A stretch of DNA of 64,000 bases from Thermococcus sp. 2319x1 (GTDB taxonomy: Archaea; Methanobacteriota_B; Thermococci; Thermococcales; Thermococcaceae): assembly GCF_001484685.1 (NCBI RefSeq), contig NZ_CP012200.1:676321-740320 (forward strand), in the 5' to 3' direction. The notes below the pieces were generated by a model. That model ran no database searches. It was not told the origin of the DNA and saw only the letters and a list, made by a program, of their open reading frames with translations. Made by a program: the position numbers and the translations under genes. This document shows, piece by piece, positions 2,977 to 12,270 of this stretch. Positions within the stretch are counted from its first letter, which is position 1. Every line of letters starts with the position of its first letter.

Positions 2977-3816
2977 ATGGAAGAAATTTACTTCCTAACA
3001 TTCAGAGAGGCCAGAATTTTACTGCTTTCTAAGGGAGAGGTTAGGGTAAACCTTGACTTGAGAAAAACGAACAGATCGCATGTAGTCCTCGTTAGGGAAG
3101 ATAAAGTCGTTTTTCCCGATGGAAGTGAAGTGGAAAAAGAGATTCTGAAGAGGATAGCAAAGGACGAAAACACAGTTTACTTTTTGAGTAAGGGGCAATT
3201 GTATAAAGCCGCAATCGCCACTGATGGCTTTTACAAGCTCGTTCCCACAATTCCCCCAACAATAGAAATAAACGGCATCAGAATGCACAGGACAAAAGAG
3301 ATGAATCCCTTAAAAGACACCCGGAGCAAAGTAGAAGCGGTGAAACCAAAAGAAGGGGAATTCGTTTTGGATACTTGCATGGGGTTGGGATATACGGCAA
3401 TAGAAAGCGCAAAAAGAGGGGCTTATGTGATTACAATTGAAAAAGATCCGAACGTCATTGAACTTGCCAGGCTTAATCCGTGGAGCAGGGAAGTTTTTAC
3501 ATTCCAAAACATTCAGCTTATCCAAGGAGATGCGTTCGAGGTGATAAAGAGGTTTAACGATAAAAGCTTTGATGCAATAATACATGACCCGCCAAGGTTT
3601 TCTCTTGCCGGGCAGTTGTATAGCGAAGAATTTTATGCTGAGCTGTTTAGGGTTCTAAAGCCAAAAGGGAGGCTATTTCACTACGTAGGGAATCCCGGTG
3701 GGAGATACAGAAGGAGAGATCTCCAGAGAGGTGTGATGGAGAGGTTGAGAAAGGTGGGGTTTAAGGGGGTTAAGAGAGTCGAAGAAGCCCTGGGAGTAGT
3801 TGCCTTAAAGCCATAA
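2977..3816 (+). CDS. SAM-dependent methyltransferase, COG2521-like
   Basis: This is a 279-residue class I methyltransferase. The N-terminal 110 residues form a separate beta-rich domain, followed by a Rossmann fold with motif I VLDTCMGLGYTAIESA, an acidic motif II (ITIEKDP) and the catalytic-type motif HDPPRFS in place of the usual NPPY/DPPY. DPP(R/Y) motifs are typical of nucleic acid base methyltransferases, so RNA is a likely substrate; that is inference. ATG 2977 is preferred over GTG 2968 because GAGTGGAG is then correctly placed as ribosome binding site. It is followed within 12 bases by the PP-loop gene and likely forms an operon with it. Confidence 0.75.
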   Translation: MEEIYFLTFREARILLLSKGEVRVNLDLRKTNRSHVVLVREDKVVFPDGSEVEKEILKRIAKDENTVYFLSKGQLYKAAIATDGFYKLVPTIPPTIEINGIRMHRTKEMNPLKDTRSKVEAVKPKEGEFVLDTCMGLGYTAIESAKRGAYVITIEKDPNVIELARLNPWSREVFTFQNIQLIQGDAFEVIKRFNDKSFDAIIHDPPRFSLAGQLYSEEFYAELFRVLKPKGRLFHYVGNPGGRYRRRDLQRGVMERLRKVGFKGVKRVEEALGVVALKP

Positions 3817-3828
3817 CCGGTGATTGCC

Positions 3829-4644
3829 GTGCTCTCTAAGGCCATAGAGGAACTGAAGGACTTTGCAAGTAGAGAAGGCCTCTATGAAAAGAAGATTCTG
3901 CTTATGTTTAGCGGAGGCAAGGATAGCAGTTTAGCCCTTTATCTCCTCAAAAACGCCGGCTTAAATACCTCTGCAATAACTTTCATTCACAGATGGAGCT
4001 GGAGAGAGCCCCTTCCACACATGCTTAGATTTACAGCCTCCCTTGGAGTAGAGCATTACCTCGTTGACATAACCGAAAGCCTTCTGAGAAACTCTCTCGG
4101 AAAAAAGGGGCCTATATGCATTCACTGTAAAAAGGTCATGCTTAAAAACACCTACTGGTTTGCAAGAATTAATGGGTTTGACATAATTGCCAAAGGGGAC
4201 AATGCAAACGACAAAATAAAAGGCGCTCTGCTGGATCAATGGGAAGGAGATCATAGATTAAGCACCATTCCGAGGATTGGGATTCCAATTTTGAGACCTC
4301 TGATAAACTACACGGCTGAAGAAGTTGAAGCCCTTACAAAAGAGGCAAATTTAAGAGTTTTTAGGATGTATGAATACGGAAGAAGGAGGCAGTGGAGGGA
4401 GGGATGCCCTCTGCAGTATATCGACAAGGAGCTGATAATAAGGGAGGAGTATTTTGACATTGCTTATGAAGCAAATTACGAGATAAGCAAAATTGCAAGA
4501 AAGCATAAGGTGAGGATGAGCATTCGTGTGCCGTCTTTCAGAATAATGTGCCACGGATGTAATGAAAAAGTGCTTGAAGAAACTAAAACTGCCCTCGAAA
4601 ACATTAAAAGGAGGCTCACCAATGCTCCCTCCGGGGAAGGTTAG
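3829..4644 (+). CDS. PP-loop ATPase with two cysteine pairs (TtuA/Ncs6-like)
   Basis: This is a 271-residue adenine nucleotide alpha-hydrolase superfamily protein. The PP-loop is LMFSGGKDSS near residue 30. A CIHC pair occurs near residue 98, a single cysteine in EGCPLQY near residue 190, and a second pair CHGC close to the end. In TtuA-type thiolases a CxxC plus a distal Cys binds a 4Fe-4S cluster, so an iron-sulfur-dependent sulfur transfer is a reasonable inference. GTG 3829 is preferred to GTG 3820 because GGTGAT is then the ribosome binding site. The last 23 bases overlap the AIR-synthase-like gene. The substrate is unknown. Confidence 0.7.
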   Translation: MLSKAIEELKDFASREGLYEKKILLMFSGGKDSSLALYLLKNAGLNTSAITFIHRWSWREPLPHMLRFTASLGVEHYLVDITESLLRNSLGKKGPICIHCKKVMLKNTYWFARINGFDIIAKGDNANDKIKGALLDQWEGDHRLSTIPRIGIPILRPLINYTAEEVEALTKEANLRVFRMYEYGRRRQWREGCPLQYIDKELIIREEYFDIAYEANYEISKIARKHKVRMSIRVPSFRIMCHGCNEKVLEETKTALENIKRRLTNAPSGEG

Positions 4645-5608
4645 AAACGAAATTTTGAGAAAAATAATTCTACCTGACCTTCCCGTTGGTGATGAGAAAA
4701 TAGTCGTTGGGCCAAAAGAGGGCTTTGACGCAGCTGTTCTGGAATATGATGAGGCCAACTACCTTGTGATTGCCACTGATCCAGTTCTCGGGGTTCCAAG
4801 GGAGCACTTTGGTTTTTTCACATATCATTTCGCTTCAAGTGACGTGGCCGTTTTTGGAGCAAGGCCCAGATGGCTGATCGTTGACCTCCTTTTGCCCCCC
4901 GGAGCCAAAGAGGAAGAGCTGAAAGCTACTATGGAGGAGCTTAAAGGGGAGTGCAAAAAATATAAAACCTCCATAGTGGGGGGTCACACTGGCGTTTATA
5001 AAACCATTAACGACTTTACAGCCACAACAACTGCTATTGGAATCGTGAGAAAGGATAAACTAAAGCTTCCCTTAGCTAAGGCGGGAGATGACATAGTTAT
5101 CACAAAGGGGATTGCGATAGAATTCGCAGTCGGGGCTGCGTGGTTTAAAGCCGAGGAACTCAAGAGCGTACTCTCCCCGTCAGAAATTTCTTTTCTAAGG
5201 GAGATGTACAGGCTTGAGAGCGTTGTTAAAGATGCACTTTTGGCAAGAGAACTTGCGAGGGGAATGCACGATGCAACTGAAGGCGGCTTAACGGCTTTGC
5301 ATGAAATAGCCGATAACTCTGGAGTGGGGTTTGAGGTTTATTATGAGAACCTCTACATGCATCCGCTTGTGGAGAAGGTTGTGAACTTCTACGGCGCAAA
5401 TCCGTTAACTGCATCTTCAACCGGCGCTTTAATCATTATCTCACCAAGAGAAAATACGGGAGAATTAATCGAAAAGCTCCAAACAAACGGAATAGGGGCC
5501 TTCGTCATTGGGAGATTCACAGAAAAAAGGGAAAGAGTATTGATTAAAAACGGCAAGAAAGAGGAGTTCCCGGAATTTGAAAGAGATGCATATGCGGATA
5601 TATACTAA
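4622..5608 (+). CDS. AIR synthase-related protein (PurM/HypE/SelD/ThiL superfamily)
   Basis: This is a 328-residue two-domain protein of the PurM-like ATP-binding family. The N-terminal part has the Asp-rich ATDPV and GARPRWLIVDLLLP segments. A mid-protein SIVGGHTGVY and the C-terminal HDATEGGLTALHEIADNSG are hallmarks of this fold. It is not HypE (no C-terminal Cys tail) and not PurM (other AIR synthase signatures are missing), so the substrate is unknown. It starts inside the PP-loop gene, implying translational coupling. An ATP-dependent activation step paired with the PP-loop protein and the upstream methyltransferase is plausible. It ends base-to-base against the convergent pelota gene. 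Confidence 0.75.
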   Translation: MLPPGKVRNEILRKIILPDLPVGDEKIVVGPKEGFDAAVLEYDEANYLVIATDPVLGVPREHFGFFTYHFASSDVAVFGARPRWLIVDLLLPPGAKEEELKATMEELKGECKKYKTSIVGGHTGVYKTINDFTATTTAIGIVRKDKLKLPLAKAGDDIVITKGIAIEFAVGAAWFKAEELKSVLSPSEISFLREMYRLESVVKDALLARELARGMHDATEGGLTALHEIADNSGVGFEVYYENLYMHPLVEKVVNFYGANPLTASSTGALIIISPRENTGELIEKLQTNGIGAFVIGRFTEKRERVLIKNGKKEEFPEFERDAYADIY

Positions 5609-6679
5609 TCACTTCACCTTATACCTCAGCAGTGCGGCAATGCCACCAAGAGCCTTGAGCTTTTCGCCGCCTTCGTGTTCCGAGCTTACTATTACTATTT
5701 CTCCCCTTGTGCCCCTTGCGAACTCCATTATCTCCTCTATCTTTTCCTTGTGCTCCCCCTTTAGCAGTTCGTCCAGAACTAAAAGCGTCTCTATAGCCCC
5801 GTAGTTTGCGGCCTCTTCGACCTCTTTCAAGCCATAAGCGACCAGTCCGTTTTTGGAAATCTCTTCGATAACCTTTTCTACAAGCTGAACTTCCTTGGCG
5901 ACTCTGTTTTCGTGGTAAACCCTATCAACGGTGCCTCTCCTGATTACCTCATAGATGCCGGTTCTTCCCGTAACGCTTGTGTCTTCTATAACAACCTTCT
6001 CGGCTAGATCTGGATAGTTCTCACTTAAAAATTTGTAAAAGTTCTCCTTTGCAAATCCCGGTCCTGCTACAATAGCTCTGTCCACTTTTTCCCTCTCCAT
6101 AATCTCGATCATTGTTCTTGCAAGGTCGTGGAAGAACTTTTTCTCCTCGCTCTCCCTGTCAGCATTATACCTCTTCCCCCCAAGGTTGTGAGTGACATTT
6201 GCTGTGATCTCAACTCCATACTCTCTAACCACAGCTATGTCAGCTTCACCTTCATCAACTACAACTATCATAACCTTAGCTCTCTGGGAGGCCTTGACTG
6301 CCTCTTCCAGCCTCTCGAGGTGGTGTCTCTTCCATTTTTCTTTCTGTATTGTTACTGTATCGTTCTCTTCAACTGCTATTGTGTGGTATTTGCCGAGAGG
6401 AACCTCCTCTCTCGAGGTATATACTATGGGGCCGGTTATCCTTAGGGCGTTTGCGAACCTGTGGAAATTTACCTTTTCCACTTTAACCCCGAGAAACACC
6501 GGTATCGCTTGGACTTTTTCGGGTCTTAGGGAATCACTCCTCTGGCTCTGCTTTCTGAGGGTTTTGGCGTAAACAACATCCCCTTCTTCAATAATGTGAT
6601 AGAGATGCCAGAGATCATCGAGCGTCTCCACCTTGACTTTGATTTTGCCCTCCTTGGGATCTTGATGAACTATTTTCAC
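5609..6679 (-). CDS. pelA: mRNA surveillance protein pelota
   Basis: This is archaeal pelota (Dom34), the eRF1-like factor that enters stalled ribosomes and, with ABCE1, splits them. The N-terminal Sm-like domain shows [15 protein letters not shown] near residue 20, followed by the central domain ([17 protein letters not shown]) and C-terminal domain ([37 protein letters not shown]). No GGQ motif is present, as expected for pelota. I place the start at GTG 6679 ([12 protein letters not shown]), matching the usual N-terminus; the open frame extends further upstream and GTG 6685 is an alternative. The gene is divergent from the L15e gene. Confidence 0.93.
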
Positions 6680-6730
6680 TCTCACCACCAGCTCAAAATT
6701 TGCGGCTTGCTTTTTAAATAATGAGGCGCA

Positions 6731-6741
6731 ACTTTTAAAAA
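6731..6741 (+). promoter_or_regulatory. TATA box of the L15e gene
   Basis: CTTTTAAAAAG lies about 90 bases before the L15e start codon, so transcription should begin near 6760 and leave a leader of about 70 bases. On the opposite strand a TTTAAAAA at about 6710-6720 could serve pelota. Confidence 0.5.
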
Positions 6742-6768
6742 GCAATACCCTTTATTCACCACGACTAG

Positions 6769-6805
6769 GCGGTGGAAACCGCGGGATGTTCCCGGAAGGG
6801 AGAAC
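6769..6805 (+). promoter_or_regulatory. Two GGAA-tetraloop hairpins in the L15e leader
   Basis: In the 5' untranslated region, GCGGT-GGAA-ACCGC (6769-6782) forms a 5-bp stem capped by a GGAA (GNRA-class) loop. It is followed by CCC-GGAA-GGG (6791-6800) inside a longer imperfect GTTC/GAAC arm (6788-6805). Such tandem hairpins in a ribosomal protein leader could bind the protein for autoregulation; this is inference. Confidence 0.4.
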
Positions 6806-6830
6806 CACAAACATGGAAGGAGGGAACGAG

Positions 6831-8150: not shown

Positions 8151-8180
8151 ATGACGGGGGAGGGTATATAGGTGATTACC

Positions 8181-9281
8181 GTGAGACCCCTCCATGATCC
8201 GATATACCTCACGATCGCCTTCGAGCAGGCAGGCGAGACAGAGCTCTCGGACAGAGGTTTCGATCTCAAGTATTCCAGGGAAGAGAATCCAACGGTAAGG
8301 CTTCTGGAAAAGAATGTTGCCCTCATAGAAGAAGGAGTTGACTCCCTGGCTTTCAACAGCGGAATGGCCGCTATCAGCACCATCTACCTCTCCATTCTCA
8401 GAGCTGGCGACGAGGTAGTTCTCCCAATGGAGGGTTATGGAACGACGATCCAGCTCGCGGAGGAGCTGGGGAAATTTGGAGTGAGGGTTAAGCTTGCATA
8501 TCCGAGTGCAGAAGCCCTCAATGAGGCAATAACAGAGAATACCAAGCTGGTCCTCACCGAGGTTGTTACCAACCCGACCCTGAAGGTCATAGACGTTCCT
8601 GAAGTCATAAAGCGGGCGAAGGAAGTTGGGGCAACGGTCGTCGTTGACAACACCTTCTCGCCGCTGGTCTTCAAACCTCTAAAAGTGGGGGCCGATGGGG
8701 TAATCCACAGCCTCACCAAGTACATAGCGGGCCACAACGACGTTATAGGGGGGGCTCTGATATGGGGCGACCTTGATCCCGAAAACCTCTGGCACTGGAG
8801 GAGGAGGCTTGGATCGATAATCCAGCCTTTCGATGCCTGGCTGGTAATAAGGGGGCTTAAAACCTTAGAATTGCGCTTTGAGAGGCAGAGCAGAAGTGCT
8901 CAGGCAATAGCTGAATTCCTAAGCGAGCATCCTAAGATTGAAAAAGTTCACTATCCCGGGCTTAAGAGCGATCCCTACCATTCAACAGCCAGCAAGATTT
9001 TTTCAAGGCACCTTTTTGGCGGCGTTCTAAGCTTCCTCCATAGGGAGGGAGAGAGTGGAGCTAAAGCATTTCTGAGGAGGCTGAAGAGAGTATTCCCCTC
9101 ACCCTCCCTCGGAGGTACCGAGAGCTTGGCAACCTATCCAGTGATAAGTGCCGCAAAATCGATGCCCGAGGATAGACGCAGGCTCCTCGGAATCACCCCC
9201 GGTCTGATAAGACTCTCCGTTGGGGTTGAGGACACCGATCTCCTTATCGAGGACATAGACAGGGCCCTGAGGGGTGGTTGA
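8181..9281 (+). CDS. metB: Trans-sulfuration PLP enzyme (cystathionine gamma-synthase-like)
   Basis: This 366-residue Cys/Met metabolism PLP enzyme would join an activated homoserine with cysteine (or sulfide) on the way to methionine. YSREENPTVRLLEKNVALIE, the pyridoxal-stacking region and VVDNTFSPL are present, and the PLP lysine is Lys180 in SLTKYIAGHND. C-terminal GGTESLATYP and RLSVGVED are family signatures. It could also be a gamma-lyase or sulfhydrylase; placement with MetE-like genes favours synthesis. GTG 8181 follows GGTGAT; GTG 8172 is the alternative. Codons are noticeably G/C-rich compared with genes outside the island. It heads an overlapping operon. Confidence 0.85.
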   Translation: MRPLHDPIYLTIAFEQAGETELSDRGFDLKYSREENPTVRLLEKNVALIEEGVDSLAFNSGMAAISTIYLSILRAGDEVVLPMEGYGTTIQLAEELGKFGVRVKLAYPSAEALNEAITENTKLVLTEVVTNPTLKVIDVPEVIKRAKEVGATVVVDNTFSPLVFKPLKVGADGVIHSLTKYIAGHNDVIGGALIWGDLDPENLWHWRRRLGSIIQPFDAWLVIRGLKTLELRFERQSRSAQAIAEFLSEHPKIEKVHYPGLKSDPYHSTASKIFSRHLFGGVLSFLHREGESGAKAFLRRLKRVFPSPSLGGTESLATYPVISAAKSMPEDRRRLLGITPGLIRLSVGVEDTDLLIEDIDRALRGG

Positions 9282-10332
9282 GATTCGGGTGACAACGTGC
9301 CCAAAGGACCTCCTGAACGGCCCTTGTGGAGGGGTGCTGAACGAAGAGTGTGAAGTGGATGGAAGGGAGTGCCCATGGGTCAGAGTACTGGAAAAGTTCA
9401 AAATGAACCCAGCGAATCTCTTTGAAGAACACCCACTGCTCCTCGAGCTTGAGGACCTTGTGAACGGAGATTCTATACCGAGAGCTTCGGTCTTCTGGCA
9501 GAACCTGGAGAAAGGAAAGGCACTCAGCGTGGAGTTCCCAGTGGCAGCTGTCTCAAAGCCCCATGAGTCGCTCCGGGTTTTCAGGGGGATCAGTGCTGAC
9601 CTGATAACCGTGCCGGACAATCCACTCGGCTACCCCCACTACGATCCCGTTGCAGTGGCCTGCTACCTCAAATCCCTAGAACTGCGCTCTGGAGTTATGC
9701 CCCACATAACGGCAAAGGATAGGAACCTGAACGCCCTGACATCAGAACTCAGGACCGCCCAGGTCTTCGGCTGTGAAGCCGTTCTGCTTACAACTGGCGA
9801 CTGGCCGAGCTTTGCAGTACCCAGCAGACCCGTCTTTGACGTTGACGCCTCGAACCTGATACGCCTGGCCAGACTCGTATTTGCCGGTGTAATGCCTACC
9901 AAGGAAGTCCTCAAAGTCGAAGACAGGCCTAGGGTTGCGAGCGTAATGAACCCGCACTACAGGCCTAAGATAGAAGCCAAGAGACTGGCAAGGAAGTTGA
10001 TAGCCGGGAGTGAGGCCTTCTTCACACAGGTGGTGGCAGCAAGGGAGAGTGCAACTGGGATTTCAAAGATCATTGAAGAGCTCAAAAAATACGCCGAAGT
10101 TGATGTCCCGATAATCGCATCGGTGCTCTACCCTATGAAGGAGGAGATAAAGCCCTTCCTTAGGGCTCTGGGTATACCTGTAGGAGATGAGCCGTTCGAG
10201 GTCCTTCTGGAGGAGCTGAAGGCCGTGGAGGCCGTAAGAGGTCTCAATCTCATAGTTAGCTCCAGAAGCTTGGAGGAATGGCTGGGCCTCTGGAGGGAGG
10301 CCAGAGAAATAATCGAGGGGGTGTTTGAATGA
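9274..10332 (+). CDS. MetV-like cysteine domain fused to MetF-like (methylene-pterin reductase) domain
   Basis: This is a 352-residue protein. The first 45 residues hold four cysteines in CPKDLLNGPCGG...CEVDGRECPW, the signature of the MTHFR C-terminal/MetV domain, here placed at the N-terminus. The rest resembles a methylenetetrahydrofolate reductase TIM barrel (VEFPV, ADLITVPDNPLG, PHITAKDRN, AVLLTTGD, RKLIAGSEAFFTQ). It should supply methyl groups to the methionine synthase encoded two genes downstream; since Thermococcales are not known for folate, the carrier is probably another pterin. It overlaps metB by 8 bases and the next gene by 4, so it is translationally coupled. Confidence 0.75.
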   Translation: MVEIRVTTCPKDLLNGPCGGVLNEECEVDGRECPWVRVLEKFKMNPANLFEEHPLLLELEDLVNGDSIPRASVFWQNLEKGKALSVEFPVAAVSKPHESLRVFRGISADLITVPDNPLGYPHYDPVAVACYLKSLELRSGVMPHITAKDRNLNALTSELRTAQVFGCEAVLLTTGDWPSFAVPSRPVFDVDASNLIRLARLVFAGVMPTKEVLKVEDRPRVASVMNPHYRPKIEAKRLARKLIAGSEAFFTQVVAARESATGISKIIEELKKYAEVDVPIIASVLYPMKEEIKPFLRALGIPVGDEPFEVLLEELKAVEAVRGLNLIVSSRSLEEWLGLWREAREIIEGVFE

Positions 10333-11258
10333 TAGTGCCAGCCCTTATTGGAAGCCTTCCGAGACCCGTTTCCCTGGCTAAGAAGATCGAGGAGTACTCG
10401 ATAGGAAGACTTAAGGAGAGAGACCTCGAAAAAGCCTACCTTGAGCATACGAGGAGGGCCTTCATCAAGCTCAGGGAGGTCAGGATACAGGTGATCACCG
10501 ACGGCCTTTACCGCTGGGACGACATCTTCAACCCATTCGTAAGGTTCATAGAGGGAGTTGAGGTCAACGGACTGTTCAAGTTCTATGAGAACAACTTCTT
10601 CTACCGCTCGCCTGTCGTGAGGGGGAATCTTTCCTTGCGTGAGAATCCCCTTTCGGAGTGGCTGAACCAGGCGCTTGCAATCAAGGAGGAAGTCTACCCC
10701 GAGGCGACATTTAAGGCCGTCCTGCCCGGCCCGATAACGCTGGCCTACCACTCCCTGAACGAGTACTACAAAAGCCTTGACGAGCTCGCAGAGGCTTATG
10801 CAGGAGTGATTGAAGAGGCCATCAAGGAGCTTCCGGTCGAGTTGGTGGAGCTCCAGGAACCGGCCTTGGCGGCTGAGCTATCAAGGGCCACAAGGGAGAA
10901 GAGCGACGAGGTATCGAAGGAGACCGCCAAAGCCATTATAGAGCGCCTCTCAAGGGTCAAGAAGCTCTGGGTCGTTACCTACTTCGGAACCCCACAGGTT
11001 TTTCCCGATAACATCATCCTGAACGTTGACCTCATCAGCGGCTCGGTTCCTGAAAACTACTCCGGAGAGCTCGGTCTGGGCATAGTAGATGCAAGGGAGA
11101 CCAAGATGGAGCGCAGGGATCGTTTGCAGGACAAGCTTAGGCTCTATCTAAGGAAGTACAGTCGGATTTACGTCACTCCTAACACGCTCTTGGACTTCCT
11201 CCCGGAGAGCGTCGCCTGGAGAAAGCTCAAACTTCTCGGAAGGCTTGGGGGTGAGTGA
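10329..11258 (+). CDS. MetE-like protein, companion of core methionine synthase
   Basis: This 309-residue TIM-barrel protein of the cobalamin-independent methionine synthase superfamily is shorter and more divergent than its neighbour. It begins IVPALIGSLPRPVSLAKK, has ITDGLYRWDDIFNPF and VLPGPITLAYHSLNEYY, and VELVELQEPAL in the place of the IQIDEPA motif. The zinc-binding His-x-Cys and distal Cys of the catalytic protein are not seen, so it is probably not itself the homocysteine-binding subunit. It may resemble the N-terminal half of full-length MetE, presenting the methyl donor. Its ATG overlaps the upstream stop (ATGA). Confidence 0.7.
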   Translation: MIVPALIGSLPRPVSLAKKIEEYSIGRLKERDLEKAYLEHTRRAFIKLREVRIQVITDGLYRWDDIFNPFVRFIEGVEVNGLFKFYENNFFYRSPVVRGNLSLRENPLSEWLNQALAIKEEVYPEATFKAVLPGPITLAYHSLNEYYKSLDELAEAYAGVIEEAIKELPVELVELQEPALAAELSRATREKSDEVSKETAKAIIERLSRVKKLWVVTYFGTPQVFPDNIILNVDLISGSVPENYSGELGLGIVDARETKMERRDRLQDKLRLYLRKYSRIYVTPNTLLDFLPESVAWRKLKLLGRLGGE

Positions 11259-11259
11259 A

Positions 11260-12270
11260 ATGGAGCTTCCAATACTCCCAACCAGCATCATAGGGAGCTA
11301 TCCCAAACCGAGATGGCTCCTGAGGATGTACAGCCTCCACAAGCTCGGCAGGCTGCCGGAAGAGGACTTCAGGGAGGCCGTTAGGGACGCGAGCGTAGCC
11401 GTCCTCAGGGAGCACGAGAGGGCGGGCATTGACATCCCGTGGGATGGTGAAATGGGCAGGAGCGAGATGACGGAATACTTCACCGCTAAAATATCTGGCT
11501 TCAGGTTCTACGGGCCAGTTAGGGTGTGGGGAAACGCTTACTTCAACAAGGCAGCGGCAGTCTCAAAGCTCGAATACCGCGAACCCCTCGTCCTCGACGA
11601 GTTCCGCTGGGTAAAGGAGAACACCTCCAGGGAGGTAGTTAAAGTTCCGGTAACCGGGCCCTACACGATAGCCGAGTGGAGCTTCAACGAGTATTATTCA
11701 AGCAAGGAGGAGTTCGTCTTTGACCTGGCAAGAATCCTGAACAAGGAGTTCAAGCTCCTGGAAAGAGAGGGTGCGACCTTTATCCAGATCGATGAGCCGG
11801 CTATGCTCAACCACCCAGACGAGGTTCCCATAGCTATTGAAGCAATAAACAGGACCGTCAAGGGTGTTAAGGTAAAGTTCGGGCTTCACGTCTGCTACTC
11901 GAACTACTACTTGCTCGCCGACTACTTCGAGGACATAAAGGTCTCACAGTTCGCCTTCGAGGCCGCTAACAGGAACTTCCGCGATCTGGACTACCTCAAG
12001 AAGCTCACCCACCAGGAGCTCGGATTTGGAGTCATTGACGTCCACAACCCGCGCATCGAGACTCCGGAGGAAGTAGCGAAGGCCATTCGCAAGGTCATGA
12101 AGTACGTCGAGCCAGAGAGGCTCTACATCAACCCCGACTGTGGCTTGAAGCTCCTCGACAGGAGCATCGCCTACCAGAAGCTCGTGAACATGGTTAAGGG
12201 CGTTGAGATCGTCAGAAGAGAGCTGGCAAGGGAGGGCAAAACTTCCATACCCTTCAGGAGGGAGGTATAG
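11260..12270 (+). CDS. metE: Core methionine synthase (MetE C-terminal type)
   Basis: This 336-residue protein corresponds to the catalytic C-terminal barrel of MetE, methylating homocysteine to methionine. The zinc ligands are His210 and Cys212 in LHVCYSN and Cys294 in NPDCGLK. IGSYPKPRWL, WDGEMGRSEMTEYF and IQIDEPAML are further signatures. Archaeal core-MetE proteins lack the N-terminal half that binds polyglutamyl folate and take methyl from another donor. The ATG at 11260 follows GGTGA at 11250-11254 and lies 2 bases after the preceding stop. The stop shares a base with the GTG of aspartate kinase. Confidence 0.9.
   Translation: MELPILPTSIIGSYPKPRWLLRMYSLHKLGRLPEEDFREAVRDASVAVLREHERAGIDIPWDGEMGRSEMTEYFTAKISGFRFYGPVRVWGNAYFNKAAAVSKLEYREPLVLDEFRWVKENTSREVVKVPVTGPYTIAEWSFNEYYSSKEEFVFDLARILNKEFKLLEREGATFIQIDEPAMLNHPDEVPIAIEAINRTVKGVKVKFGLHVCYSNYYLLADYFEDIKVSQFAFEAANRNFRDLDYLKKLTHQELGFGVIDVHNPRIETPEEVAKAIRKVMKYVEPERLYINPDCGLKLLDRSIAYQKLVNMVKGVEIVRRELAREGKTSIPFRREV

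Follow-up and report, generated by a model that had tools for sequence, protein, structure and literature searches.

A conserved PP-loop and AIR-synthase-like gene pair of Thermococcales and its candidate sulfur insertase

Three consecutive genes in a 1.96 Mb genome of the order Thermococcales, encoding a methyltransferase, a cysteine-rich PP-loop ATPase (PP) and an AIR-synthase-like protein (AIR-A), raise the question of whether they form one pathway. The original prediction, made for the window (the whole stretch of 64,000 nucleotides that was analysed), was that the trio could carry out a new thio- or methylthio-type modification of RNA or a cofactor. Translation of the window confirmed the three predicted open reading frames in position and in motifs. 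The methyltransferase gene runs from an ATG at 2977 to a stop at 3816 (279 aa), its start agreeing with that of the solved homologue 8vyd, the PP gene from a GTG at 3829 to a stop at 4644 (271 aa), with orthologues beginning at the same place with GTG or ATG, and the AIR-A gene from an ATG at 4622 to a stop at 5608 (328 aa). As had been proposed, a DPPR-type methyltransferase with the motif HDPPRF is present just upstream of PP, and the genes for PP and AIR-A overlap by exactly 23 bases (4622-4644). The features of the locus are given below.

2977..3816, + strand: SAM-dependent methyltransferase with HDPPRF motif, homologue of the PDB 8vyd protein; a neighbour of the pair, not a member
3829..4644, + strand: PP-loop ATPase (PP) with invariant CXXC...GCP; predicted [4Fe-4S] sulfur insertase
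3910..3927, + strand: codons of the PP-loop SGGKDS (PP residues 28-33), invariant in 13/13 aligned orthologues
4117..4128, + strand: codons of CIHC (Cys97, Cys100), putative cluster ligands, invariant and aligned with CSYC of TtuA
4399..4410, + strand: codons of EGCP (Cys193), putative third cluster ligand; invariant, but in another alignment column than the third TtuA Cys
4549..4560, + strand: codons of CHGC (Cys241, Cys244), possible metal site, dispensable; the pair is lost in G023, G055, G058, G066 and G098
4622..5608, + strand: AIR-synthase-superfamily protein (AIR-A) with invariant Cys111 and GGHTG and a SelD/HypE/ThiL-like fold
5609..6745, - strand: archaeal homologue of Pelota with eRF1 domains, a conserved neighbour that converges on AIR-A, given as context

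Further downstream in the window, positions 6769-6811 match the eL15-Euryarchaeota ribosomal protein leader (Rfam RF03144, 39.2 bits) at the start of a likely L15e gene. By eye, the stretch 8172-12270 contains a run of a PLP-dependent trans-sulfuration-like, a methylenetetrahydrofolate-reductase-like and two MetE-like open reading frames, which resembles a gene cluster for methionine synthesis whose cobalamin-independent synthase is split.

Does the methyltransferase belong with the other two genes? Its product aligns over the full length with 8vyd (476.9 bits), with no notable difference between the two proteins. We take 8vyd to be the enzyme that forms N4,N4-dimethylcytidine (m4,2C918) in the 16S rRNA of T. 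kodakarensis. Fluke et al. reportedly identified, in 2024, N4,N4-dimethylcytidine at position 918 of this rRNA. The modification itself is cited in PMC11898903. Among 94 Thermococcales genomes collected for comparison, 74 of them near-complete, the methyltransferase was found in 73 of the 74 near-complete ones. Its adjacency to the PP/AIR pair is confined to g1, the genus to which the window belongs, and in most genera it is encoded elsewhere. This distribution and location rule it out as a member of the PP/AIR unit. Most likely the enzyme is a known one that happens to be encoded here, presumably an RNA-type methylase that would have come to lie beside the pair in one genus. To this extent, the trio is not one pathway.

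The association of the other two genes is of a different kind. PP is present in 77 of the 94 genomes and in 66 of the 74 near-complete ones. Both PP and AIR-A were found in 66 genomes, and in 64 of these a coordinate script placed them adjacent or one gene apart. Spacing was within 60 bases in 55 of the 66, corresponded to a gene-sized gap in nine, and the pair was split across contigs in one genome and separated by 830 kb in another (G016). The gap in G055 holds a gene for a PP2C-type protein phosphatase (L084, 8645-9400). A convergent Pelota gene follows AIR in four genera. The upstream neighbour of the pair is the methyltransferase in g1, and in g3 and g6 this place is taken by divergent feoAB-like genes, of which FeoA was recognised with Pfam and FeoB by inspecting the sequence. 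The neighbourhood is thus conserved well beyond this genome, and with the pair kept together across Thermococcales the observation at this locus is well beyond chance. Given the 64 of 66 genomes in which they are adjacent or one gene apart, PP and AIR form an old operon.

An old operon might encode a two-step pathway, in which PP transfers an activated phosphate or thiophosphate species that AIR has produced, with a paralogue of about 39% identity (AIR-B) substituting where AIR-A is missing. The same-strand arrangement with overlapping or close genes, the widespread occurrence of AIR-B and, in AIR-A, an invariant Cys111 together with a SelD-like GGHT motif all speak for such a scheme. However, each gene is also retained alone. 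PP occurs without AIR-A in eight near-complete genomes, which are all the near-complete ones of genus g2, probably Pyrococcus; in place of an AIR-A orthologue they have only AIR-B, and every conserved residue is intact in the g2 PP sequences inspected. In G062, an intact PP adjoins a truncated AIR, and PP and AIR-A coexist at a distance in G016. Conversely, AIR-A occurs without PP in six near-complete genomes (G005, G008, G009, G012, G015 and G020), and in the first four the block of TPR protein, peptidase M19, methyltransferase, AIR and Pelota is unchanged with PP missing. AIR-A keeps its motifs in genomes without PP, and its dN/dS there is about 0.09-0.14 (two close pairs), no higher than the 0.14-0.23 in the presence of PP, so that purifying selection acts on it in genomes that lack PP. 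G082 and G089, both possibly incomplete genomes, are devoid of both genes. Joint loss would be expected of a two-protein pathway, yet each gene persists without the other, and we therefore consider the two-step scheme improbable. What is conserved at the locus is an operon whose two genes are retained independently of each other, accompanied by a methylase that is found elsewhere in most relatives. In g2 genomes without AIR-A (loci L080-L081), the PP gene follows a gene for an MBL-fold (PhnP-like) protein, and an inverted element, GGGGCCGACA...AATGGCCCC, precedes its putative promoter.

What, then, is AIR-A? The assignment to the PurM/HypE/SelD superfamily was borne out, with scores of 58.1 bits for AIRS and 58.3 bits for AIRS_C, far above the Pfam cut-offs, and a Foldseek match to HypE from the HypCDE complex of T. 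kodakarensis at E 1e-22. Nevertheless, AIR-A falls below every curated cut-off, with 94.7 versus 251.6 bits for HypE (TIGR02124), 102.7 versus 184 bits for ThiL (TIGR01379) and 65.9 versus 125 bits for SelD (TIGR00476). HypE, ThiL (275 bits), PurM and PurL are each encoded separately in the genome, which excludes AIR-A as the missing member of any of these four. AIR-A is thus related to SelD, HypE and ThiL but is itself none of them. Its Cys111 is invariant in 45/45 sequences, and it probably phosphorylates a substrate of its own, a predicted ATP-dependent function. AIR-A would then be an ancestral operon neighbour of PP. The suggestion that AIR activates sulfur or carbamoyl groups for PP found one positive argument, adjacency. 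Since the trio is not one pathway, work on the AIR-like protein should seek AIR's own substrate.

The PP protein belongs to the PP-loop ATPases, with the signature SGGxDS present as SGGKDS at residues 28-33; FSGGKDSS was invariant among the orthologues inspected. Further motifs are Cys97-IHC100, Cys193 within REGCPLQYID, and Cys241-HGC244. Across about 46 different orthologue sequences that were examined, the first CXXC and GCPL never vary. At least five genomes have lost the C-terminal CXXC as a pair, as expected for a dispensable metal site. No curated NCBIfam cut-off is reached by PP, the Pfam models passed are only the broad ThiI and QueC, weakly, and the closest families are LarE, TtuA, TilS and ThiI. 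The score against the TtuA model NF049949 is 30.1 bits (cut-off 450), whereas a profile comparison with Thermococcales TtuA/NcsA gave 99% probability over 240 columns and placed CIHC of PP on CSYC of TtuA. Among PDB profiles, TtuA PH0300 matches PP best. Foldseek with a modest PP model (weak, built on three sequences, pLDDT 61) listed the TtuA holoenzyme 5mkp first and then LarE, at a TM of about 0.36. Profile and fold comparison therefore place PP next to TtuA, NcsA and LarE, in keeping with the earlier view that it resembles [4Fe-4S] sulfur insertases. The more specific claim of a TtuA-like cysteine placement holds for the aligned CXXC. It does not hold for the distal Cys, as the third TtuA Cys (ECPHARG) pairs with RMYEYGR of PP and GCPL follows about 14 residues later, nor for the C-terminal pair with its losses. 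Not being column-aligned, Cys193 is a plausible but unproved third ligand. From the CXXC to Cys193 the spacing is 93, which lies within the range of known cluster enzymes; the corresponding spacing is about 88-97 in TtuA, NcsA and TtcA, in part by the profile comparison. In LarE of T. maritima, where Cys92, Cys95 and Cys172 (spacing 77) bind a [4Fe-4S] cluster, the cluster passes on a non-core sulfide (PMC9283937).

The genome encodes its own TtuA separately (548.7 bits), and NcsA and ThiI are also found elsewhere. Two other PP-loop-type genes were noticed. One, at L104 638-1378 (G000:C1, about 362.1-362.9 kb), encodes a 247-aa PP-loop-like protein with CGKC and FGCPLW that matched no NCBIfam model and gave no convincing match to a solved structure, and might be a Cys-dependent sulfur insertase. 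The second, at L105 483-1310 (G000:C1, about 1427.5-1428.3 kb), encodes a PP-loop protein of 276 aa, which carries CKKC as well as an N-terminal Cys-pair finger, is closest to TtuA, LarE and WbuX and is assigned to no family.

On these grounds we consider it somewhat probable that PP inserts sulfur in an ATP-dependent reaction of the TtuA/NcsA/TtcA/LarE type, with RNA as its most likely substrate and with no need for AIR or the methylase. By the same mechanism as in LarE, a substrate oxygen, carbonyl or imide, would be activated through adenylation by the PP-loop and then replaced by a sulfide. This additional sulfide would be carried on the free iron of a [4Fe-4S] cluster, for which Cys97, Cys100 and Cys193 would be the ligands. 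As an uncharacterised sulfur insertase, PP is credible.

N-acetyl sugar amidotransferases are likewise PP-loop proteins with Cys pairs, which counts against the insertase assignment. PP could accordingly be an amidotransferase, or another amide- or amidine-forming enzyme, acting on a small molecule or sugar and binding zinc through its cysteines. Amides are common products of PP-loop ligases, the C-terminal CXXC resembles a zinc site, and there is a weak match of 22.3 bits to WbuX, the N-acetyl sugar amidotransferase (TIGR03573). This score is, however, far from the cut-off of 203.2 bits, and PP is closer to TtuA and LarE both by profile and by Foldseek, which makes such an activity unlikely in our judgement. 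A nickel-pincer role can be dismissed more firmly. LarE (TIGR00268) is the top NCBIfam match of PP (33.6 bits, cut-off 150), and LarE structures dominate the Foldseek list. However, LarC (PF01969), which is needed for nickel insertion, was found in 0/94 Thermococcales genomes, the control search being positive in six reference genomes; with LarC absent there is no nickel-pincer route for PP, and a LarE-type function in making that nucleotide is ruled out for practical purposes as extremely improbable.

If PP is a sulfur insertase, which molecule does it modify? tRNA of T. kodakarensis contains m5s2U, cnm5s2U, s4U, s2C and two methylthio-adenosines, and s2C is independent of ubiquitin-like sulfur carriers (PMC11323500). 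In P. furiosus, T. kodakarensis and M. maripaludis, s2C was mapped to position 17 of tRNA (PMC7668247). In a review of 2017 the entry for the enzyme making archaeal s2C was 'to be determined' (PMC5372739), and our literature search found no enzyme assigned to tRNA s2C17. With TtuA, NcsA and ThiI encoded elsewhere in the genome, s2C17 is left over for an enzyme. It is the most concrete candidate target for PP, and we give it a rather low chance. Against it stand the occurrence of s2C17 in M. maripaludis, PP having been found in Thermococcales alone (in a searched set without Methanococcus), and the two further uncharacterised Cys-containing PP-loop proteins of the same genome (L104 and L105). 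The broader proposal that PP is the missing Thermococcales s2C17 synthase, a lineage-specific [4Fe-4S] thiolase outside the TtuA, TtcA and NcsA families, and that AIR-A is in addition a new enzyme that activates its substrate with ATP at an active site like that of SelD, with an invariant Cys, is a doubtful one. Alternatively, PP might thiolate a protein or cofactor, its neighbours being purely historical; AIR is the sole conserved partner of PP, and in g3 and g6 PP is divergent from the feoAB iron-transport genes. As tRNA is the substrate of most of the nearest families, we hold a non-RNA substrate to be quite improbable.

With respect to distribution, PP was not found among the non-Thermococcales genomes of the phylum that were searched (E 1e-18), nor among 390 genomes from the phylum to which the Thermoplasmata genome G115 belongs (E 1e-15), a set without a positive control. 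A scan of a public genome collection returned, among the matches listed, Thermococcus relatives only, together with distant PP-loop proteins. If the sulfur insertase reading is true, an archaeal tRNA thiolation without an assigned enzyme gains a specific candidate, and species without PP are natural knock-outs. Moreover, an apparent three-gene pathway is removed as a false lead. For specialists this amounts to a useful annotation and a clear test, and to no great surprise.

Comparison with known systems sets both proteins of the pair beside well-studied relatives. HypE carries a C-terminal Cys in PRxC (the genome's own HypE ends in PRVC), whereas AIR-A ends in DAYADIY, without such a Cys. SelD has an N-terminal Cys or Sec, whereas AIR-A has no Cys before residue 111. 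Asp36, Asp53 and Asp74 of AIR-A are aligned with conserved Asp residues; where HypE and ThiL carry an Asp, AIR-A has GGHT, presumably like that of SelD. PP has the PP-loop, the CXXC-C motif and a similar size in common with T. maritima LarE, although it lies far below the LarE cut-off and the absence of LarC means that the LarE pathway is absent from Thermococcales. TtcA, the tRNA 2-thiocytidine(32) synthetase, is a [4Fe-4S] PP-loop thiolase with a CXXC and a distal Cys, and its chemistry is that proposed for PP, which scores only 18.0 bits against the TtcA model NF007972 (cut-off 272). TtuA, the tRNA-5-methyluridine(54) 2-sulfurtransferase (PH0300; PDB 5mko, 5mkp and 3vrh), has zinc fingers, of which PP lacks the N-terminal one (it has no N-terminal Cys pair) and retains one C-terminal CXXC only, missing in some orthologues; the two proteins share SGGKDS, an aligned CXXC and a later Cys followed by Pro.
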